Positions 7,070 to 18,963 of a DNA stretch of 20,330 nucleotides are shown piece after piece. Every line of letters begins with the position of its first letter. Position 1 is the first letter of the stretch. Source of the DNA: a virus; the IMG/VR virus record IMGVR_UViG_3300035698_013908, positions 1-20,330 of that record; one strand, given 5' to 3'. Both the position numbers and the translations under genes were made by a program. The notes beneath the pieces are model-generated. The model was not told the origin of the DNA. It saw only the letters and a program-made list of their open reading frames with translations, and searched no databases.

Positions 7070-8578
7070 TTATAAAAAGTATTTTCGGTGTTTAAGACAT
7101 TTTTTAATTTTAATATTAATGCCTTCTTCTAAACACAAAGGACACCTGTCATTTCTATTTACTTTTTTAAGTACATCTCCATTTAAAGAATAGATATCTT
7201 TACCTCTTTTGCCAATTCCCTTAGTAGAGCCTCGTTTTCTTAATTCATCATTTATTAAACAAGCTTCATCAAATAATTTAACCCATTTTTTACACTCATT
7301 TTTCCAAGTTAACTTTTTAGCGTATTGATATGCTCGTTCTACTATTTTTTTGACCTTAGACTTCTTCTTATAAATAAAATTAAGCATTTCTACAGCGCTT
7401 TTAACATTAGTCATAGGTCTAATTATTTCATTATCAATTTGACCAAGACAAACTATTTCCGATAAAGTCATACCGGAATTAAAACAAAATCCTCTTGAAG
7501 TATTTTCATTAAAACCATCTTTAGTATTTAAAATCTCTGGAATAGAGGTAATATTCGGGGCAATTATTGGAGTTTTAGTAGCCATAGCTTCGGTAATAGA
7601 TAATCCCCAACCCTCACCAAAAGTAGTAGTTATAACCACATCTGCACAATTATAAATTCTATTTAAAACACCTATAGGGATTCCAATACTAGGATTAAAA
7701 TTTTTAGGAAACGCAAAATCTTTTTCTTCTAGTTCAATTTGTCTTGCCATATCGTATAAATTACCCCCTACATCTCTTGGGGTACAATGTAAATACAAAA
7801 ACGAATTAGAATTCTTTTTTCTAAACTCTTTATAAACAATTAATGTTTTTAATAAATCTTTCCTTGTCTGATTTCTGTTAACATTAATAATTAAAAAAGT
7901 ATCATTATCAATCATTGGGAAGTATTTTTTTCTAAATTCTTTTTTATCCTTATCTGATACTGGATAAAAATCTTTAGTATTAGTTCCGTGTCTAATAACT
8001 TTCAACCTAGTTTTTAATTTATTTTTATCATCAGCAAATTTTAAAATCTGTTCAAAACCAAAATCACAATAAGCCACAGGAAAAGAGGTCTTAGCTATAC
8101 AATCATCAATCCAAATTTTCTTTAAAGTTCCATCACCAGGATAATAACCAATCCAAACAAAATGATTTTTAAAAAATTTACTTCTTAAAGTATTATTTTG
8201 TAGTTTTCTAATTCCTTCGGCAAAACTTTGCTTAAATTGTTGGGATTTAGCCTGTAAAATAAAATGATCTTGAATAGTAAAAAAAATATCATAAGGAGGT
8301 TTTATTTCTTGGAATGCACCGGTCAAAGCCATTAAAGCGTATTCTCTACCAAACATATCAGCCGAGCCAATTCTATGAGAAGGAACTAAAGTATTAAGAT
8401 AATAAAATTCTTTTCCAAATTTTTCCTTATCAAAAGTTCCGTCATAATTAATCCCAATCATATCTATTTCGTATTTGCCCGTATCATAGAGCTCTTTTAA
8501 AACATTTTTTGAAACAGTAGCAAATCCGGTACTAACAGTTGGACTATCGGCTAAAACTAATATTTTTCTTTTAGTCAT
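7070..8578 (-). CDS. GT4-type glycosyltransferase with a C-terminal zinc-finger-like tail
   Basis: This 502-residue protein has the two-Rossmann GT-B layout. The N-terminus MTKRKILVLADSPTVSTGFA fits the acceptor-binding domain. The C-terminal half contains ADVVITTTFGEGWGLSITEA followed by MATKTPIIAPNITSIPEIL (about 315-350), the E-x(7)-E-like donor-binding motif of GT4 (GPGTF) retaining enzymes, which transfer sugars from nucleotide donors. Unusually, the last 30 residues read NRNDRCPLCLEEGINIK…CLKHRKYFL, a C-x-x-C…C-x-x-H set that could bind zinc. The gene overlaps the upstream GT2 gene by 8 bases. The target glycan is unknown. Confidence 0.85.
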   Translation of the reverse strand: MTKRKILVLADSPTVSTGFATVSKNVLKELYDTGKYEIDMIGINYDGTFDKEKFGKEFYYLNTLVPSHRIGSADMFGREYALMALTGAFQEIKPPYDIFFTIQDHFILQAKSQQFKQSFAEGIRKLQNNTLRSKFFKNHFVWIGYYPGDGTLKKIWIDDCIAKTSFPVAYCDFGFEQILKFADDKNKLKTRLKVIRHGTNTKDFYPVSDKDKKEFRKKYFPMIDNDTFLIINVNRNQTRKDLLKTLIVYKEFRKKNSNSFLYLHCTPRDVGGNLYDMARQIELEEKDFAFPKNFNPSIGIPIGVLNRIYNCADVVITTTFGEGWGLSITEAMATKTPIIAPNITSIPEILNTKDGFNENTSRGFCFNSGMTLSEIVCLGQIDNEIIRPMTNVKSAVEMLNFIYKKKSKVKKIVERAYQYAKKLTWKNECKKWVKLFDEACLINDELRKRGSTKGIGKRGKDIYSLNGDVLKKVNRNDRCPLCLEEGINIKIKKCLKHRKYFL

Positions 8579-9362
8579 ATTTTTCTACCCCCCTAAAGTA
8601 TTTATAATTTTTATCAGCTTCATTATATGGTGTTTTATAACCTTCTCCGTCCATTACCTTATCAGGCATAGCTCCCCACTTATCTACATACTTAGCTTGA
8701 GTTAAATTAGAATTAGTGTTGGTATTTCTGGCAGTTAGTGATCCAAAGTGATAATAAGGAGCTTGTGAAGTTCGTTTGGCGTGTTTTCCAGCCTTTAAAA
8801 TTCTAGTATGATAATCATTATCTTCATAAAAACAAGGATAGAAATTATTATCAAACCAACCTATATTGCTTATAGTCTGTCTGTTGATTAAAAATCCACT
8901 AAAATCAGGCCCTTCTTCTCTCCAATTAGTAATTGGATTTAATAAATTTTCATCTTTCTTAACTTCCATTTTTTTAAAATCTTCTAATCCCATTATCGGA
9001 GCTACATTGTTACAAGTAATCATTGAATAATTAGTTTTATCCATAGCTTCTAGTAAATTATCTATAGTATCTTTGTGAAAAATTACATCATTATTAGTAA
9101 TAAAAATATACTCGCACTCAGGGTCGCTCATAGCTTCTTTGATTCCTTTATTCCAAGCTTCACTTAAACTAACTTTAGGTGAAAATCTATGAACCCAAAA
9201 ATCTTTTGAATTTTGTTTACTACTTAACCAATCTTGAGTAAATTGATCGCTACCTTGGTCAATGATGTGTATTGAATGTGTATGTTTAGTCTTAATACTT
9301 TCAACAGCATCTTTAGTTAAATTAACTTCATTAATAATAGAAATAATTATGTGTAATTTCAT
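8571..9362 (-). CDS. GT2-type glycosyltransferase
   Basis: This 263-residue GT-A enzyme begins MKLHIIISIINEVNLTKDAV and has HSIHIIDQGSD (29-39, the first nucleotide-binding turn), YIFITNNDVIF (85-95, with N-N-D in place of the D-x-D metal motif) and CFYEDNDYHTRILKAG (about 177-192), the acceptor/catalytic region of rhamnosyl-type GT2 proteins. The start overlaps the TGA of the 88-residue gene as ATGA. It is one of several glycosyltransferases in a continuous cassette. The donor and acceptor sugars cannot be read from sequence. Confidence 0.85.
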   Translation of the reverse strand: MKLHIIISIINEVNLTKDAVESIKTKHTHSIHIIDQGSDQFTQDWLSSKQNSKDFWVHRFSPKVSLSEAWNKGIKEAMSDPECEYIFITNNDVIFHKDTIDNLLEAMDKTNYSMITCNNVAPIMGLEDFKKMEVKKDENLLNPITNWREEGPDFSGFLINRQTISNIGWFDNNFYPCFYEDNDYHTRILKAGKHAKRTSQAPYYHFGSLTARNTNTNSNLTQAKYVDKWGAMPDKVMDGEGYKTPYNEADKNYKYFRGVEKYD

Positions 9363-9625
9363 TTTTCAAATCTTTTCCAAAAGACTTTATTTCCATTTTT
9401 TAATCTATTTATTTTTTTAATAATATCTTTTTGTATTTGGTTTAGTGTCAATCTTTTTTTTCTTCTATTACCAGGCTCATATAACATAAAACTAAAATTA
9501 TACTTAAAAATCTCTACTGATAAGCTTATATATTCGTATGTATAACAATCAATACTTTTTGACATTATATTTGTATATATTCTTATAAATGGTAATCTTA
9601 TGTCTAAATATAAATAAGGTTTCAT
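9359..9625 (-). CDS. Small unknown protein
   Basis: This 88-residue protein (MKPYLYLDIRLPFIRIYTNI…) is rich in Tyr, Ile and Lys, ends with a basic tail (NRRKKRLTLNQIQKDIIKKI), and has no motif I recognise. It sits between a methyltransferase and a GT2 gene with ATGA coupling to the latter, so it is probably translated. A weak GAAAGA precedes the ATG. Alternating hydrophobic and charged residues suggest a small beta-rich domain followed by a helix. No function is assigned. Confidence 0.55.
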   Translation of the reverse strand: MKPYLYLDIRLPFIRIYTNIMSKSIDCYTYEYISLSVEIFKYNFSFMLYEPGNRRKKRLTLNQIQKDIIKKINRLKNGNKVFWKRFEK

Positions 9626-9642
9626 AAGTTTCTTTCTATATT

Positions 9643-10176
9643 TTATATTTGTTTAGTAAATTCTTGAGCCAAAATCCACCAATCCAGAACACAATCAGAA
9701 CCTTCATAAATAGGCTCATTTAATACTTCTCTAGTAATATCTCTAGTCTGCCAATTAAATAATTTATTATTTCCATCCCATCCACTCATACGATCAATTA
9801 ATTCTTGTCTATCATATCCCCATTTATGTAAGTCATATTCAGAACCTTGATAAGCTCCATAGGTATTAACATTGTGAATGTATGTATCAACTTTCCCATC
9901 AAGCCAAGCTCTATCTATTTCTTTTAAGTTAGGAACAAACACAGCTAATTTCCCACCATTTTTAAGCAATCTAAACCATTCCCCTACATAAGTTTGTAAA
10001 TCGTGAATAGCAATATGTTCAACTAAATGATGTGCCACAATAATGTCTGCGCATTTATCATCTAAAGGAATTTTTTTAGCATCAGCAATTATCTCAACTT
10101 GATAACCTTGTTCTTGAACATCAATATTTGTCCAAGTTTCAAAAGGTCTTTGACCACTAGCAAGATTTATTTTCAT
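9643..10176 (-). CDS. SAM-dependent methyltransferase (class I, Methyltransf_11-like)
   Basis: This 177-residue protein has a minimal class I fold: MKINLASGQRPFETWTNIDV (motif I region, with a short 'L-A-S-G' instead of the usual D/E-x-G-x-G), IIADAKKIPLDDKCADIIVA (motif II/III with the acidic residue before the strand), HHLVEHI (motif IV) and LLKNGGKLAVFVPN (motif V/VI). This pattern is typical of predicted SAM methyltransferases in polysaccharide and phage glycan clusters. It is coupled by ATGA to the preceding GT2 gene, which suggests a sugar or glycan-linked acceptor. The substrate is unknown. Confidence 0.8.
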   Translation of the reverse strand: MKINLASGQRPFETWTNIDVQEQGYQVEIIADAKKIPLDDKCADIIVAHHLVEHIAIHDLQTYVGEWFRLLKNGGKLAVFVPNLKEIDRAWLDGKVDTYIHNVNTYGAYQGSEYDLHKWGYDRQELIDRMSGWDGNNKLFNWQTRDITREVLNEPIYEGSDCVLDWWILAQEFTKQI

Positions 10177-10913
10177 ATTATTTTTACTCCATCTATATTT
10201 TTAAAAGTTTCTTGACCAATAGCCTGATCTCCATAAGTATCAGTTTTTCCAGTTGAAATAATTAATTCAGGTTCAATGCTTCCTACTAAAAAGCCTGCTT
10301 TAATAAGTTTCTGACAAAAAGCCCAATCATCACTACGACCAGTTTTTTTATCTAATCCATCTTGGTGATCGAAATATTTAAACCTATTCCAAATTTCCCA
10401 AGTAATTAAATGAGAATATCCTGATACAGCGTCCTTAATTCCAATTCTAAATAAACCTTGAGATTCTTTATCAAATAAGGTACTTAAAATTTCTTCATTA
10501 TTTTTTAAATAAGGATGACAGCCACCGCCTAATAAAGCTACTTTTTGTTTACTAACTACTTTATAAATATTAATTAGTTGGCTTAACCAACCTTTCTTAA
10601 AATAAACATCATTATCAGTAAAATATAAATATTTTCTAGTTTTATAATTGTTTTGGATAAAATCACAAGCCTTATTTCTTGATCTACCCGGTCCAAGATT
10701 TTCCTCATTCCTAAACATCATAAATCTATATTCTTGTTGTAAATCTAATAAAACTTTTTTAGTTTCAAAACCAGAATAGTCATCAATGACAAGTAATGAA
10801 AATAATTCTAATGGGGTATTTTGAAATAATGAGGTAATTGTTTGAATAGTATGCTCTGAACGATTAAATACAGGCAATATAATATTGCAAACGGCTTTGT
10901 TTATGGGTTTCAT
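10173..10913 (-). CDS. GT2-type glycosyltransferase
   Basis: This 246-residue GT-A enzyme carries VCNIILPVFNRSEHTIQTI at the N-terminus, LLVIDDYSG (40-48), NLGPGRSRNKAC (72-83) and YLYFTDNDVYF (95-105, D-N-D metal site), then a SDDWAFCQKLIKAG segment near residue 193. All core features of inverting family 2 enzymes are present. It follows the PLOD-like glycosyltransferase with a 12-base gap and overlaps the methyltransferase as ATGA. Acceptor unknown. Confidence 0.88.
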   Translation of the reverse strand: MKPINKAVCNIILPVFNRSEHTIQTITSLFQNTPLELFSLLVIDDYSGFETKKVLLDLQQEYRFMMFRNEENLGPGRSRNKACDFIQNNYKTRKYLYFTDNDVYFKKGWLSQLINIYKVVSKQKVALLGGGCHPYLKNNEEILSTLFDKESQGLFRIGIKDAVSGYSHLITWEIWNRFKYFDHQDGLDKKTGRSDDWAFCQKLIKAGFLVGSIEPELIISTGKTDTYGDQAIGQETFKNIDGVKII

Positions 10914-10925
10914 TTTAAATTAAAA

Positions 10926-11579
10926 TTAAGCAATATAATAATTATAACACTCATTCATAAAAATTTCATTGGGACTTTTGCCCTTGCCACCACCAAAATG
11001 TAAAACGCAAGTATCCTCAATTTTTTCCTTATTACCATTTAAAACAGTTTGAAAAAGCCTACGATTATAATCAATTCCTATATCATAAATTTGTTTAGTA
11101 AAAGCCTGTTGCCATAATCTTTGATCGCTACTCATAATTTCTGAGCTAGTATGAATTTTGATTCTTTTTAATACTTTAATTATATCTTTGGTTTTTCCCA
11201 TATATTGTCCAGCACAAAGAAAATTATATCCATCTTTATTGATAATTGGAAATTTATTTTTTAAACTAACATCAGGATAACAATCGTGACTTCCGGCAAT
11301 TATAATTTTATGATATTGCTCTACAAATCTTTTCAAAATTTCATAATAACCTTTAATTAAAAAGCTATCAAAGCCATCAGTATGTAAAGTATATTCTTGT
11401 TTAACGGTCGGGAGAAAATCTAAGAAGTAATCAATTTTAGCCTGAACATAATTTTTAAAATTAACTCCAACACCAAAAGTTCTAAAAGGAATATTTTGCT
11501 TATTACAAGATAATTCCAATCTACGCACTAAGGTTGTGTTTTCGTGCAAACAAGCAGTAGCAACTAAAATCTTTTTCAT
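10926..11579 (-). CDS. PLOD/GT25-like glycosyltransferase
   Basis: This 217-residue protein resembles the glycosyltransferase domain of procollagen lysyl hydroxylases (PLOD) and similar viral enzymes. It has YTLHTDGFDSFLI (63-75, the acidic metal site), IIIAGSHDCYPD (92-103, like the A-E-x-x-C-W-P segment of PLOD), FLCAGQYMGKTKDI (120-133, matching L-N-S-G-x-x-I-G) and SSDQRLWQQAF (150-160, the D-D-Q segment), and it ends with VLHFGGG. Such enzymes transfer glucose or galactose from UDP-sugars, in animals to hydroxylysine. The phage acceptor is unknown. It is ATGA-coupled to the preceding gene. Confidence 0.72.
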   Translation of the reverse strand: MKKILVATACLHENTTLVRRLELSCNKQNIPFRTFGVGVNFKNYVQAKIDYFLDFLPTVKQEYTLHTDGFDSFLIKGYYEILKRFVEQYHKIIIAGSHDCYPDVSLKNKFPIINKDGYNFLCAGQYMGKTKDIIKVLKRIKIHTSSEIMSSDQRLWQQAFTKQIYDIGIDYNRRLFQTVLNGNKEKIEDTCVLHFGGGKGKSPNEIFMNECYNYYIA

Positions 11580-12211
11580 AAAAGATAATCATTATTAAAT
11601 TTACAGTTATAATTATCTATTTCTCGTAAGACTGTCAACTGTTCTTTTGTTTTTACTCTGTACTCTGTTCTATTAAAATTTAATTTTTTAATTAATGGAT
11701 AAAATTTTTGTTTATATTTTTTAAAATCATCAATAATACTGTCATATAATTTATAATCTTCAAATCCAAAACTTTTAAATCCAACCCTTTTACCGCCCGC
11801 ACTATTCCAAACCCCGCCCCTTTCCTCTTTTAATAAAACTTTAGCGCCATAAATCTCAGCTACATCAACACACTTTTGCCAAACATTCTCATTTTTTCCC
11901 TCACCTTCTCCGGTATAATCTTGTAATTGATAAACAGCTAATTTATTTTCCCATTCAATAATATTAACAGCATAAACCCTGGGAGCTAAACCATACCAAC
12001 TACAAATATTTTGTATTCTAGTGCTATCTAATAAAAAAAAAGGAGAAGATGACCACTTAAATTTGGCTAAACTTTCTCCTTCTGTAAAAAAATATCTATA
12101 TCCAATTTTTAAACAAAGTCCATCAGGATTTCTATTAGCTACAAGACAAGCTTGTTTTAATAATTCTCCTCTATCAATAAATGTATGATTTCCACAAGGT
12201 GTTGGTATCAT
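11576..12211 (-). CDS. Unknown protein with a possible kinase/phosphotransferase-like N-terminal lobe
   Basis: This 211-residue protein contains LCLKIGYRYFFTEGESLAKFKWSS, then a segment running SWYGLAPRVYAVNIIEW and KLAVYQLQDYTGEGEGK. The order 'K-x-G…helix…G-L-A-P-R-V-Y…Q-x-x-D-Y' resembles the N-lobe to hinge part of small-molecule or sugar kinases and aminoglycoside-phosphotransferase-like folds. A later GGVWNSAGGKRVGFKSFGFED might hold a substitute for the metal-binding loop, but I do not see a clear HxD or DFG. The gene is coupled by ATGA on both sides within the glycan cassette, so a role in activating or decorating a sugar is plausible but unproven. Confidence 0.4.
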   Translation of the reverse strand: MIPTPCGNHTFIDRGELLKQACLVANRNPDGLCLKIGYRYFFTEGESLAKFKWSSSPFFLLDSTRIQNICSWYGLAPRVYAVNIIEWENKLAVYQLQDYTGEGEGKNENVWQKCVDVAEIYGAKVLLKEERGGVWNSAGGKRVGFKSFGFEDYKLYDSIIDDFKKYKQKFYPLIKKLNFNRTEYRVKTKEQLTVLREIDNYNCKFNNDYLL

Positions 12212-12753
12212 TTTTTAAATATTCTCATTGACCAAATGTCAGTTAAAATTTTACAATCTTTCATTAACTCATCAACAGCTTTTAATACTCCAGAGTGAGA
12301 TGAAGCATAATCGTGAAAAACTATTAGTCCGCCCTTTTTAACCTTAGGTAAATAATTTTCAATATCTCTTTTAACTCCTTCGTAAGCGTGATCGCCATCA
12401 ATAAACAATAAATCAATAGGTTTTCTAATCCATTTTTTAGCTACCTCTGATTTAGCATTATATAATTTTATATTACTATATGGTTTTATATTTTTTTCAA
12501 TCTCAGTCTGCATATAAACTCTATCATCCCCAAACCCATCAAAATGATCTTTAAAGCAATCAATACAAATAATTTGTTTTCCAGTCTGAGCCATCATACA
12601 AGCACTAGAGCCTAAGTAACTCCCAATTTCTACTATCAAACCCCCTTCAGGAACTTCATAGGCTAAATTATAAAGTTTTTCAAGTTCACAAGTATGACAA
12701 CCTGCCCTTATGTGTTTAATTTTGTCATAAACTTCATTAAAGGGTATAATCAT
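12208..12753 (-). CDS. SAM-dependent methyltransferase (Methyltransf_24-like)
   Basis: This 181-residue class I methyltransferase shows LIVEIGSYLGSSACMMAQ (39-56, motif I, E-x-G-x-x-x-G-S), IICIDCFKDH (acidic end of strand 2), LLFIDGDHAYEGVKRDI (about 114-130, the I-D-G-D-H-x-Y signature of Methyltransf_24) and LIVFHDYASSHSGV. This group includes catechol-O-methyltransferase-like and sugar or glycan methyltransferases in phages and bacterial surface clusters. It starts at an ATGA overlap with the 40-residue membrane peptide. The exact acceptor is unknown. Confidence 0.85.
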   Translation of the reverse strand: MIIPFNEVYDKIKHIRAGCHTCELEKLYNLAYEVPEGGLIVEIGSYLGSSACMMAQTGKQIICIDCFKDHFDGFGDDRVYMQTEIEKNIKPYSNIKLYNAKSEVAKKWIRKPIDLLFIDGDHAYEGVKRDIENYLPKVKKGGLIVFHDYASSHSGVLKAVDELMKDCKILTDIWSMRIFKK

Positions 12754-12877: not shown

Positions 12878-12902
12878 TCACCTCCTTTTATAAATTTAAA
12901 AT
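12878..12902 (-). repeat. Duplicated ribosome-binding leader, copy 2
   Basis: This 25-base segment matches 13293-13317 at all but one position. It contains AAATTTATAAAAGG running into GGTGA, which is a strong Shine-Dalgarno region. The two copies precede two consecutive small genes (12872 and 13285). A duplicated initiation module giving matched, high expression is the simplest reading. Confidence 0.6.
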
Positions 12903-13285
12903 TATTCTAAATAAATTAAACATTCTCCAGCAGCTTCCTTAAGTGCGTATGGAAGTTCCCCAGTTTCTTCATATCTAACTGCATAATTAATCGTATCTTG
13001 TCTGCCGTAATTGTCTTCCATATAATCAATGACACAACTAGCATATTTATAACAATTTGGGTCTTCTGATAATGCACCTTTAATAAATTGTTCTCTATAA
13101 ACTTTCCAATCAGCATTAGAAACAATATTATTTTCAGTTTCTTTAATTTCAGCTTCTTTAACTGTAGTATTAACAATCTCAGGATTAACTGTAGTTTGTT
13201 CAACTTTTTTATTACTAAAAACGGAATTAATTAACATTCCAAATAAAATCAAGACTAAAATTCCTATTATTTTTTTAATATTCAT
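12902..13285 (-). CDS. Secreted or membrane-anchored small protein
   Basis: The 127-residue product starts MNIKKIIGILVLILFGMLIN, a basic N-terminus plus hydrophobic helix typical of a signal peptide or N-terminal anchor. A polar Thr/Glu-rich linker follows (residues 25-60). The C-terminal domain (about 60-127) is helical with three cysteines: DPNCYKYASCVIDYMEDNYG and a GECLIYLE end. It probably lies outside the cytoplasmic membrane. It is the first gene after promoter A and has a strong Shine-Dalgarno site (GGGGGTGAG). Superinfection exclusion and moron-type envelope proteins have this architecture; I do not recognise a specific family. Confidence 0.75.
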   Translation of the reverse strand: MNIKKIIGILVLILFGMLINSVFSNKKVEQTTVNPEIVNTTVKEAEIKETENNIVSNADWKVYREQFIKGALSEDPNCYKYASCVIDYMEDNYGRQDTINYAVRYEETGELPYALKEAAGECLIYLE

Positions 13286-13292
13286 TTTTTAC

Positions 13293-13317
13293 TCACCCCC
13301 TTTTATAAATTTAAAAT
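13293..13317 (-). repeat. Duplicated ribosome-binding leader, copy 1
   Basis: This is the partner of 12878-12902 with a single difference in the purine run (GGGGGTGA instead of GGAGGTGA). It lies at the end of the leader that starts at promoter A, immediately before the gene at 13285. Confidence 0.6.
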
Positions 13318-13378
13318 ATAAATAATTCTCAATATCTTCAAGTGTAAATATTCATATTTTTCCTTAATTTTTATTAAC

Positions 13379-13414
13379 TGAACATAGTATATATTAAATA
13401 TAACAATTTGTAAA
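13379..13414 (-). promoter_or_regulatory. Promoter A, sigma70-like, for the secreted protein and glycan cassette
   Basis: On the minus strand TTTACA at 13414-13409 and TATACT at 13391-13386 are separated by 17 bases. The expected start is the A near 13379, giving a leader of about 94 bases. From the spacer through the early transcribed region, 35 bases are identical to promoter B. Confidence 0.75.
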
Positions 13415-13423
13415 CAATCAATT

Positions 13424-16601: not shown

Positions 16602-16636
16602 AATTCTCCTTTTTTTTGTCCTTTTGTTTTATTAAC

Positions 16637-16672
16637 TGAACATAGTATATATTAAATATAATAGTTTGTCTA
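16637..16672 (-). promoter_or_regulatory. Promoter B, sigma70-like, for the recombination operon
   Basis: The minus strand has TAGACA at 16672-16667 and TATACT at 16649-16644 with a 17-base spacer. The expected start is the A near 16637. A 35-base stretch covering most of the spacer, the -10 box and the first transcribed bases (ATGTTCAGTTAATAAAA at its end) is identical to promoter A. Confidence 0.75.
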
Positions 16673-16954: not shown

Positions 16955-17077
16955 TCATCTGTAAATATAATTTTTAAACTCTTTTATTTGTTCAGTTTTA
17001 GATTTTTTCTTCTCTAATTCCCATTGTTTTTTCTTCCAAATAATATAGCTAGGTAATAATTTTATTATTTTTGTCAT
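16955..17077 (-). CDS. 40-residue basic helical protein
   Basis: The ATG at 17077 overlaps the TGA of the helicase gene as ATGA. The product reads MTKIIKLLPSYIIWKKKQWE followed by LEKKKSKTEQIKEFKNYIYR and stops at TGA 16957-16955. It is lysine-rich and likely helical, with no known domain. Coupling to the helicase suggests a replication accessory role, but no function can be assigned. Confidence 0.55.
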   Translation of the reverse strand: MTKIIKLLPSYIIWKKKQWELEKKKSKTEQIKEFKNYIYR

Positions 17078-17970
17078 ACAAATATTTTTTTAATTTTATT
17101 TTTATAATCGTTATCAAATATAAATTTTCCATTATTTAATAATTCAAATTTTCTACAACCAGTTTTTCCTTGTATTCTGTTTTTTGCTATAAACAATATT
17201 CCTTCGGTTTCTAAATAATTCTCTGAGCTATCAGAATTTTTTTTACGATATAAAAGCATAACTACAGATGGCACTTGAGATAGGCTCGAACTATCCCTTA
17301 AATCATCTAATTCAGGCGGTCTATCTCCATTTAATTTGCGAAGATGAACAATTACAATTACTGGAATTTCTAATCTTTTAGCCATATTTTGTAATTCAAT
17401 TATCATATTATCCACATCTTCAGTAACCCCTTTCCCGTTTTTTTTCATAAAATGTAAATGATCTATACAAACTAATTCTGGTTTTTTATCTTCAATCGCA
17501 ACGCTTAAATCATTGACACTTAAAAGTTGAGAGCTTTCTAATATTTCTAGTTTGTCTGGTATAGGTTGACCAGTAATTGTTTTTATTCTAGGAGCAACAA
17601 ATATTCCTTGCTCTAACGAGCAAAATAAAACTTTATGATCTTCTGCCACCCTAGCACACATATTCAAAGCAAATGTAGTTTTTCCAAAGTGGGTAGGTGC
17701 TGAAATTAAATAAAGCTGTTGAGGTAAAAACTTAAAATACCAATCTAAAGTTTTAAATCCTGTAGGAATACCATCACGCCATCTAGCTTGCATTTTAAGA
17801 TATTCTTTATAACTTTCTTCCCCATTAAATGTTTTAAATTTTTCCTTTCTTTCTGATAATTCATTCAAAACTTTATCTACAACCCTGTCAGTCATTTCGG
17901 GGTCTAAAATTATTTGTTTAATTTTCTCGTAAGTTAAACTTTTAATAATTAAGTCAAGTGATTTATTCAT
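17074..17970 (-). CDS. DnaB-type replicative helicase, C-terminal domain only
   Basis: This 298-residue protein has a RecA-like SF4 helicase core: Walker A SAPTHFGKTT (90-99), VLFCSLEQG (114-122, with the catalytic Glu at 120), Walker B ELVCIDHLHF (165-174), the VIVIVHLRKL strand with the polar sensor (205-213), and DLRDSSSLSQVPSVVMLLYR (223-242), the conserved D-L-R-D/G-S-x-x-x-x-Q segment of DnaB. Instead of the usual DnaB N-terminal helical domain it has only about 60 helical residues. It follows the DUF4373-type gene as ATGA, the common phage pairing of initiator or loader with helicase. It probably unwinds DNA at the phage fork. Confidence 0.87.
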   Translation of the reverse strand: MNKSLDLIIKSLTYEKIKQIILDPEMTDRVVDKVLNELSERKEKFKTFNGEESYKEYLKMQARWRDGIPTGFKTLDWYFKFLPQQLYLISAPTHFGKTTFALNMCARVAEDHKVLFCSLEQGIFVAPRIKTITGQPIPDKLEILESSQLLSVNDLSVAIEDKKPELVCIDHLHFMKKNGKGVTEDVDNMIIELQNMAKRLEIPVIVIVHLRKLNGDRPPELDDLRDSSSLSQVPSVVMLLYRKKNSDSSENYLETEGILFIAKNRIQGKTGCRKFELLNNGKFIFDNDYKNKIKKIFV

Positions 17971-18791
17971 TTATTTTTTTCTCTGTCCATTTTATCAACA
18001 TATTGAGCAAATATGCCCTTTGGTTGAGTTGATTTTATATTATTTTCTTTACCTTTATCAGATTTAATAAAATTCTTTAAAGCATATAAATAATTCTTAT
18101 AAGGCTCGTTATACTCTCCGGACTTTCCATTTCTACCTAACCAATTTTCCATATTATCAATACAGGAATAAATAAAATCTTTAGTAACTTGGTATTTCTT
18201 AATAAGTTTATTTATTTCTTCTTCGTTTAAATTTTTTATTAATTTAAAATTATTAAATTTTTTCTTTGTATTTTTATCTAATTTATTTTTATAATTAATG
18301 GTTGTATTAGTATTCTCTTTCCTTTCCTTTCCTTTCCTTTGCATTGGGTCTGCCATAGGTGACCCAATGGCTGACCTATTAGCTGACCTATTTTTCCATC
18401 TAATACTTGCACCTTTCTTTCCAGCGGTTTTTTTAGCCTTTCTAAAATTCTTGTGTTCCATCATTCTTTTACTATAAATGCCCTTTTCATCTTGAATAAA
18501 TAAACCAATTTTTATAGCAAAATCCATAACTGCTTTTAGCAAATCCATAGGTATGCTATAGCTCAGCGATAGCTGAGGCATACAATCATTTTCTAAAATT
18601 CCATTATCTTCCTGAGCCATAGCTTCAATTATCATAAAAAATATTCCATAACCTTCATAATTGTTAAATTTAGCTCTTAATTTAAGAACTTTTTGATCGT
18701 TTGCCGAATTATAATCGTGAGGAAAATAATAAGTATCTTTTATAAATATCCTTTCTTTTATAAGGTCGGGGGGCAACCAACCAATATGCAA
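17967..18791 (-). CDS. DUF4373 / Lin1244-type phage replication initiation protein
   Basis: The product (274 residues from a TTG at 18791) carries IKDTYYFPHDYNSANDQKVL at residues 17-36 and LRAKFNNYEGYGIFFMIIEA just after, the DUF4373 winged-helix N-terminus found in phage and Listeria replication proteins. A linker with the repeats NRSANRSAIGSPMADP and QRKGKERKE follows, then a helical C-terminal part (about 175-274) ending GIFAQYVDKMDREKNK, suited to loading the adjacent helicase. The start is uncertain: TTG 18791 has no good Shine-Dalgarno site and sits in an inverted-repeat arm, while GAAAGGA is well placed before an ATA codon at 18743, exactly where the domain begins. Origin-like repeats lie inside the gene. 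Confidence 0.78.
   Translation of the reverse strand: MHIGWLPPDLIKERIFIKDTYYFPHDYNSANDQKVLKLRAKFNNYEGYGIFFMIIEAMAQEDNGILENDCMPQLSLSYSIPMDLLKAVMDFAIKIGLFIQDEKGIYSKRMMEHKNFRKAKKTAGKKGASIRWKNRSANRSAIGSPMADPMQRKGKERKENTNTTINYKNKLDKNTKKKFNNFKLIKNLNEEEINKLIKKYQVTKDFIYSCIDNMENWLGRNGKSGEYNEPYKNYLYALKNFIKSDKGKENNIKSTQPKGIFAQYVDKMDREKNK
18190..18310. other. Very AT-rich candidate DNA-unwinding stretch
   Basis: This stretch of the replication gene is almost all A and T even against the AT-rich background (notably 18235-18300) and encodes a Lys/Asn/Ile-rich linker. It lies beside the 12-bp repeats and the purine-rich pentamer tract. Iterons followed by an AT-rich region inside the initiator gene is the layout of the lambda origin in gene O, so a DNA-unwinding element is a sensible reading. 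Confidence 0.4.
18318..18340 (-). repeat. Pentanucleotide tandem repeat (AAAGG, four units plus three bases)
   Basis: On the plus strand TTTCC is repeated four times plus TTT. On the coding strand it gives a purine tract translated as RKGKERK. Gain or loss of a 5-base unit by slippage would shift the reading frame of the replication gene. Confidence 0.75.
18346..18393 (-). repeat. Four tandem 12-bp iteron-like repeats inside the replication gene
   Basis: Read on the minus strand from 18393, the units are AATAGGTCAGCT, AATAGGTCAGCC, ATTGGGTCACCT and ATGGCAGACCCA, encoding NRSA, NRSA, IGSP and MADP. The first two differ at one base and the others drift. A 9-bp inverted repeat (CATTGGGTC at 18342-18350, GACCCAATG at 18361-18369) overlaps the block. 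Tandem repeats with one unit near a helical turn inside an initiator gene are typical binding sites for that initiator. Confidence 0.55.
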
Positions 18792-18822
18792 TGGAGTTTA
18801 AAGTTAACCCCCCACCTTATAA
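18758..18822 (-). promoter_or_regulatory. Inverted repeat B: 15-bp stem over the start of the replication gene
   Basis: TTATAAGGTGGGGGG (minus strand, 18822-18808) pairs with CCCCCCGACCTTATAA (18773-18758), leaving one bulged G. The stem includes six consecutive G-C pairs, which stand out in this AT-rich DNA. The 34-base loop contains the TTG start codon. No U-run follows, so it is not a standard terminator. The Shine-Dalgarno-like GAAAGGA begins immediately after the 3' arm. Confidence 0.7.
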
Positions 18823-18856
18823 GACTAATTTTTAGAAAGAAATTTGCATATTGGTT
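18779..18856 (-). promoter_or_regulatory. Inverted repeat A: 13-bp perfect arms interleaved with repeat B
   Basis: AACCAATATGCAA (minus strand, 18856-18844) is the exact reverse complement of TTGCATATTGGTT (18791-18779). The second arm starts with the TTG start codon. The 5' arm begins about eight bases after the predicted start of promoter C. The order of arms is A1, B1, A2, B2, the topology of a pseudoknot or of two mutually exclusive hairpins. Confidence 0.7.
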
Positions 18857-18863
18857 TTTTCAT

Positions 18864-18899
18864 TAACTAAACTATAAATTAAATATCATAATTTGTAAA
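18864..18899 (-). promoter_or_regulatory. Promoter C, sigma70-like, for the replication operon
   Basis: TTTACA at 18899-18894 and TATAGT at 18876-18871 have a 17-base spacer, with a predicted start near 18864. It shares TTTACAAATT, ATATTTAAT and the AGTTAAT segment after the -10 box with promoter A, so it is a diverged member of the same promoter family. Confidence 0.7.
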
Positions 18900-18906
18900 C
18901 ATCCAA

Positions 18907-18963
18907 TTACAGCATAAAACCAGAAACGCCACCTTTTCGTTCTTCTTTAGTCAAGTGTTTCAT
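18907..18963 (-). CDS. Possible 18-residue peptide gene
   Basis: The minus strand from ATG 18963 encodes MKHLTKEERKGGVSGFML and stops at TAA 18909-18907. An AAGGA lies just before the ATG, with spacing that is short for a ribosome-binding site. Its VSGFML ending resembles VSGFLL at the end of the preceding virion gene, with matching DNA (GTTTCTGG, then a similar tail), so the region may be a partial duplication of that 3' end. It could equally be non-coding. Confidence 0.3.
   Translation of the reverse strand: MKHLTKEERKGGVSGFML

Follow-up and report, generated by a model that had tools for sequence, protein, structure and literature searches.

The window, by which we mean the whole of the 20,330-base IMG/VR record analysed, carries a replication operon on its minus strand; portal, terminase and glycosyltransferase-like genes are also present. 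The operon contains a gene for a Lin1244_N (PF14297) replication initiation protein at 17967-18743 (minus strand; profile score of 38.8 bits against a cut-off of 25; phrog_2562), and the next gene, at 17074-17970 on the same strand, was identified by profile searches as a DnaB-like replicative helicase. Viral contigs and phage records yielded no close relative of either the replication protein or the helicase, and the sister contig L003, whose terminase is 79% identical, ends before the replication region. A run of glycosyltransferase- and methyltransferase-like genes, assigned from translations only, occupies window positions 7070-12753 (minus strand). A 25-nt repeat containing TTTATAAA and a Shine-Dalgarno-like stretch occurs with 96% identity at 12878-12902 and 13293-13317, the latter copy just before the start of an open reading frame at 13285 and the former at the end of that frame.

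Upstream of the replication gene is a sigma-70-type promoter, TTTACA-17-TATAGT (18871-18899, minus strand), where an earlier sequence-only reading had placed one. Three copies of this phage promoter occur on the strand (13357-13423, 16615-16672 and 18842-18908), and their conserved part extends downstream; TATATTTAATATATACTATGTTCAGTTAATAAAA is this downstream part in two of the three. Interleaved arms follow only the third copy (18842-18908). A search with a pattern derived from the phage promoter yielded nothing.

Four arms follow the promoter in the order A1-B1-A2-B2, and both the order and the positions agree with the earlier reading. Arm A1 (AACCAATATGCAA, 18844-18856, minus strand) is a perfect 13-nt complement of A2 (TTGCATATTGGTT, 18779-18791, minus strand). 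Arms B1 (TTATAAGGTGGGGGGTTAAC, 18803-18822, minus strand) and B2 (GTTGCCCCCCGACCTTATAA, 18758-18777, minus strand) contain the cores TTATAAGGTGGGGGG (18808-18822) and CCCCCCGACCTTATAA (18758-18773), which form 15 bp with one bulged G; we counted eight G-C pairs in this stem, where six had been claimed. Stem B can also be drawn without a bulge, from 20-nt arms (18822-18803 with 18777-18758) that are 85% complementary, in which case the spacer between A2 and B2 is 1 nt. The linkers in the window are 21 nt (L1) and 11-16 nt (L2), with an A2-B2 spacer of 1-5 nt.

Apart from the A repeat, the window contains no inverted repeat of at least 12 bp whose loop is 90 nt or shorter. Inverted repeats of at least 13 bp occur at a mean of 0.12 per shuffled window, and local shuffling of 300 nt yields one in 0.13% of cases. 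Among 1,226 scanned stretches, the A/B combination is the top interleaved stem pair, with z-scores of -8.0 for the mRNA strand and -4.5 for the opposite one, in agreement with the earlier judgement that chance was an unlikely cause. An origin of the arms by chance, or as ordinary hairpins, would fit an AT-rich window in which weak inverted repeats abound; this explanation is contradicted by the shuffle statistics, by the rank of first among 1,226 and by the enrichment among homologous leaders described below, and we regard it as extremely improbable. The two interleaved stems exceed chance and have an H-type-like order. Because the arms are stronger on the mRNA strand as well as beyond chance, they were counted in favor of an RNA-level reading. 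No Rfam 15 family matched the window or any sampled locus at its gathering score.

The TTG that forms the first three bases of A2 had been proposed as the start codon of the replication gene. Its homologues have an ATG directly, or one or two codons, before a conserved K-x-T-Y-Y-F motif, and in the window the codon that appears to align with this ATG is ATA (18741-18743, minus strand). It stands 5 nt behind the Shine-Dalgarno sequence GAAAGGA (18749-18755, minus strand), a spacing that suits ATA; GAAAGGA itself lies two bases after B2, as claimed. We rejected the TTG at 18791, which lacks a Shine-Dalgarno sequence and would give an unconserved N-terminal extension. Judging from the homologues, the gene probably starts at ATA 18743-18741, which may be a rare start codon or a sequencing or assembly error. 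Given the preference for the ATA start, 18866-18744 was treated as an untranslated leader.

To compare leaders of homologous genes, we gathered Lin1244_N loci from viral contigs and genomes and assigned starts by rule. In the 130 nt upstream of each start, the strongest interleaved stem pair was then given a score relative to 300 dinucleotide shuffles. By this score, which ignores loop entropy, p<0.01 was reached by 19 of 121 dereplicated Lin1244_N leaders and, for other genes of these loci, by 6 of 240. Contig ends cost the set a few leaders, and since dereplication was via shared 7-mers, related but diverged leaders may be counted separately. The enrichment is found only where the Lin1244_N gene has its own upstream gap: 17 of 51 leaders with a gap of at least 90 nt reached p<0.01, and 2 of 70 without one. 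Other genes with a gap of at least 90 nt reached it in 8 of 72 cases (Fisher p 0.003 and rank test p 0.0002 against 17 of 51). This contrast is conservative, as several of the strongest controls (L120, L062) are leaders upstream of Lin1244_N that have the same architecture and apparently belong to the same operon.

The earlier reading had suggested a search for the leader in related phages. The A1-B1-A2-B2 order recurs before homologous genes in many phages, with unrelated letters. Arm lengths match or exceed those of the window in L014 (A 14 bp, B 17 bp), L012 (A 13 bp) and L096 (A 29 bp, B 10 bp), and the same interleaved architecture is found before homologous genes in L105, L109, L018 and L066. 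In L005 and L007, the A arms differ by one double compensatory change. None of the loci found was near enough to the window to reveal compensatory change in its own stems. The most extreme case is L096, a contig labelled as a Helicobacter cetorum MAG, in which the 29-bp A arms include six G-U pairs and the 10-bp B stem ends 4 nt before the ATG. Homologues embedded in operons, such as those of Enterococcus EF62phi and Lactobacillus LBR48, have the protein but no such leader, and it was also absent from the cultured Firmicutes and Vibrio phages whose genes lie inside operons.

A class of leaders from Bacteroidota-type phages has the same order and ends in a terminator. The host type was judged from an upstream TATnTTTG promoter and from genome matches, e.g., to Chitinophagaceae. 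Members have a first hairpin with a 7-nt loop (A1), stem B, a second hairpin with a complementary 7-nt loop (A2), a U-run and the ATG; A is here a kissing-loop pairing that spans the terminator stem B, and many share a recurring core, GGAUGAAC / GGAUUCC. In an alignment of 34 of these leaders (A3), 96% of cells pair, a percentage biased upward by derivation of the structure from the same sequences; the changes on both sides in 21 of the 23 pairs are stronger evidence. The covariation score was 0.735, compared with 0.182 +/- 0.015 for shuffled alignments and 0.07-0.20 when the structure was slid. A covariance model built from the class (R1) matched L162 (E 1.4e-6) and, weakly, L036, L041, L089 and L196, all of them from outside its building set and in every case at the gene start.

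A scan with the core pattern, GGATGAAC..GGATTCC..TTTTT, recovered this arrangement ahead of other genes that come first in phage operons, L226 and L246 among them. A GC-rich terminator-type RNA with CTACCAC/GTGGTAG arms and the GGATGAAC and GGATTCC core occurs in L226 (2520-2640) and L246, where the gene behind it does not encode Lin1244_N; its product resembles a replication protein. In L120 (991-1113), L227, L230, L245 and L250, a terminator-type leader precedes a small first operon gene (e.g., MIVELKKVKITK) and is not directly before Lin1244_N. Matches to the core pattern in unrelated coding sequence lacked the complementary arms and were set aside. The terminator-type RNA is unlikely to be a host riboswitch, since it was found in one of 246 genomes of one host family, twice, before the phage gene.

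The window shares with this class the gene family, the order A1-B1-A2-B2-start and the onset at the transcript start. It has neither the hairpin around A1 nor the recurring core nor the U-run, all of which characterize the class, and R1 did not match the window up to an E value of 1. In the window, B2 is followed by AAGAAAGGA, with no U-run directly after the arm, and no intrinsic terminator was found before the start codon. The window leader is an analogue of the terminator-type leaders and not a member of their class.

The beginning of a replication initiator gene, the position of this element, is a common site for phage origins, and the arms could act at the DNA level, as initiator-binding repeats or single-strand structure at a replication origin. 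The sequence-only reading had named this alternative. Against it, G-U pairs occur in most of the longer stems of relatives (six of 29 pairs in L096 and three of 17 in the B stems of L014 and L018), a C-G/U-G exchange is seen in A3, and U-run terminators end B in many relatives. The architecture is also absent where the gene lacks its own gap, and the arms begin at the transcript start, right after the promoter. We consider a DNA-level role improbable.

The RNA could also be a static structure, a pseudoknot or stable hairpin that shields the 5' end or forms a platform beside the Shine-Dalgarno sequence and does not switch. On its own, stem B has a very high predicted stability (-26 to -29 kcal/mol), and it stops two bases short of that sequence, which would suit such a role. 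A simple protective hairpin, however, needs no conserved interleaved order, and the terminator at the end of the structure in many relatives implies regulation, so that we think a static role rather unlikely. The combination of arms that exceed chance, recurrence before homologous genes and covariation within the terminator-type class supports a regulatory RNA.

The earlier reading had proposed a switch between mutually exclusive A and B hairpins. Its regulatory RNA part is upheld by the recurrence of the order and by the covariation of the pairs in the Bacteroidota-type set; its argument that A and B exclude each other is weakened by the geometry. The strand through A2 and B2 is continuous and the linkers are long, so helix A could stack on B with the linkers spanning both. 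Judging from these linker lengths, A and B could form together in the window. A2 is also flush with B2 (0-1 nt) in L018, L066, L062 and L174, and in L012 it is flush with the inner part of the B stem. For L096, whose A arms measure 29 bp and whose spacer is 7 nt, simultaneous formation of the complete A and B stems seems unlikely, and exclusive states are possible in some members.

In the minimum-energy fold of the window leader, stem B is retained, and an anti-Shine-Dalgarno sequence in linker L1 (UUCUUUCU, 18834-18841, minus strand) pairs over 8 bp with the Shine-Dalgarno region (AGAAAGGA, 18756-18749), in a helix that the earlier reading had missed. The duplex is worth -7.9 kcal/mol, within the top 0.8% of 21-nt windows on the same strand. 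With the A arms free, the leader has a predicted energy of -26.8 kcal/mol for B alone and -30.7 kcal/mol for B with the added helix; the A duplex amounts to -16.4 kcal/mol before pseudoknot costs, the pseudoknot energy excluding loop costs. Helix A lies at the tip of B and the anti-Shine-Dalgarno helix at its base, and since the anti-Shine-Dalgarno begins only two bases after A1, the two cannot coexist. The exclusive pair in the window is therefore more likely to be helix A and the anti-Shine-Dalgarno helix than A and B. A match as good was found in 10% of dinucleotide shuffles of the linker (p 0.10), a marginal value, which makes the role that folding predicts for the anti-Shine-Dalgarno tentative.

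A 12-codon open reading frame, MKKPICKFLSKN (ATG 18863 to TAG 18825, minus strand), spans A1 and the anti-Shine-Dalgarno. It lacks a Shine-Dalgarno sequence of its own, begins at about the predicted transcript start and shares the reading frame of the replication gene. The idea of a conserved leader peptide was dropped, since in several terminator-type relatives a stop codon immediately follows the ATG at the matching place.

Pairing between molecules is another way in which the A arms could be used: A1 or A2 of one transcript, or an antisense RNA, would pair with another transcript and limit copy number or bar related phages, as in plasmid incompatibility, with the A arms as a specificity code. 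The A arms diverge widely in an otherwise conserved scaffold while always remaining complementary, and the terminator-type class has fully complementary 7-nt loops like those of ColE1 and IncI. In the I-complex plasmids, loop sequence is used for incompatibility (PMC10724649). Intramolecular pairing accounts for the covariation equally well, however. We found no second locus with the arms in the window, and promoter-like sites on the opposite strand of the window were no commoner than in shuffles, so that no antisense promoter stands out. We judge regulation in trans to be unlikely.

The best reading, which we think somewhat more probable than its rivals taken together, is that the leader is a cis-acting pseudoknotted RNA that gates the replication operon; that an RNA acting in cis is involved appears likely. 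The leader of about 110 nt would fold in cis and set the amount of replication initiator. Stem B (15-20 bp) would form a hairpin whose loop carries A2, and A2 would pair with A1, at the transcript's 5' end. Once both helices had formed, the A1-B1 linker would be stretched along them and its anti-Shine-Dalgarno could not reach the Shine-Dalgarno sequence, which would remain free and allow translation. If an antisense RNA, a protein or slow folding opened helix A or kept it from forming, the anti-Shine-Dalgarno helix would extend stem B and hide the Shine-Dalgarno sequence. This particular switch, in which A and B together oppose the anti-Shine-Dalgarno helix, is put forward tentatively, as the ON and OFF assignment, the part played by the anti-Shine-Dalgarno and the trigger are all inferred. 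In many related phages, the same design is followed by a U-run after B2, and the output there would probably be transcription termination.

That leader RNA governs the synthesis of replication initiators is textbook knowledge for plasmids. In the ColIb-P9 repZ leader, a short pseudoknot helix between an upstream loop and a segment beside the Shine-Dalgarno sequence acts as a translation switch. Translation of this initiator is pseudoknot-dependent according to Asano and Mizobuchi (1998), as cited in PMC10724649. In ColIb-P9 a pseudoknot arm adjoins the Shine-Dalgarno sequence of the initiator gene, and in the window B2 ends 2 nt before it. The likeness is one of architecture, with no sequence relation claimed: ColIb-P9 is a plasmid and the window is from a phage, with arms (13 and 15-20 bp) far longer than the ColIb-P9 helix. 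Control in ColIb-P9 involves a leader peptide and an antisense RNA; in the window, the 12-codon frame over A1 and the anti-Shine-Dalgarno lacks a Shine-Dalgarno sequence, and opposite-strand promoter-like sites are at shuffle level.

The repC and repR leaders of pT181 and pIP501 are terminator attenuators driven by a countertranscript (PMC5703833). They have alternative pairings and a terminator-like stem before the initiator start codon, which the terminator-type relatives resemble; the window differs in having no U-run after B2, and the A1-B1-A2-B2 order is not in the description of those plasmids. In the pSK41 rep leader, a stem sequesters the rep ribosome binding site, with induction by the antisense RNA RNAI (PMC5703833). 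Such a stem is close to the proposed state of the window in which B is joined by the anti-Shine-Dalgarno helix, whereas the trigger in the window, unlike RNAI, is hypothetical. By analogy, the window would work most like ColIb-P9 and pSK41, and the terminator-type relatives like the pT181 and pIP501 attenuators.

In the set of papers searched, nothing relevant was found on DUF4373 together with RNA motifs or on structured RNAs ahead of replication genes in phages, nor are we aware of any RNA element that serves phage replication operons in general. The leader is probably an RNA control element absent from the catalogues. We would go further only as speculation, doubtful as it stands, in suggesting that the window exemplifies a widespread class of pseudoknotted RNA switches, as yet undescribed, at the transcript starts of phage replication operons in several bacterial groups. 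The output of such switches would be termination or exposure of the Shine-Dalgarno sequence, the core of the terminator branch might sense a ligand or phage protein, and the diverging A arms might be a self-recognition code. The terminator-type class supplies constructs for probing, termination assays and ligand searches. A covarying, recurrent leader that is absent from Rfam 15 is a candidate for how many phages time or limit the replication of their genomes.
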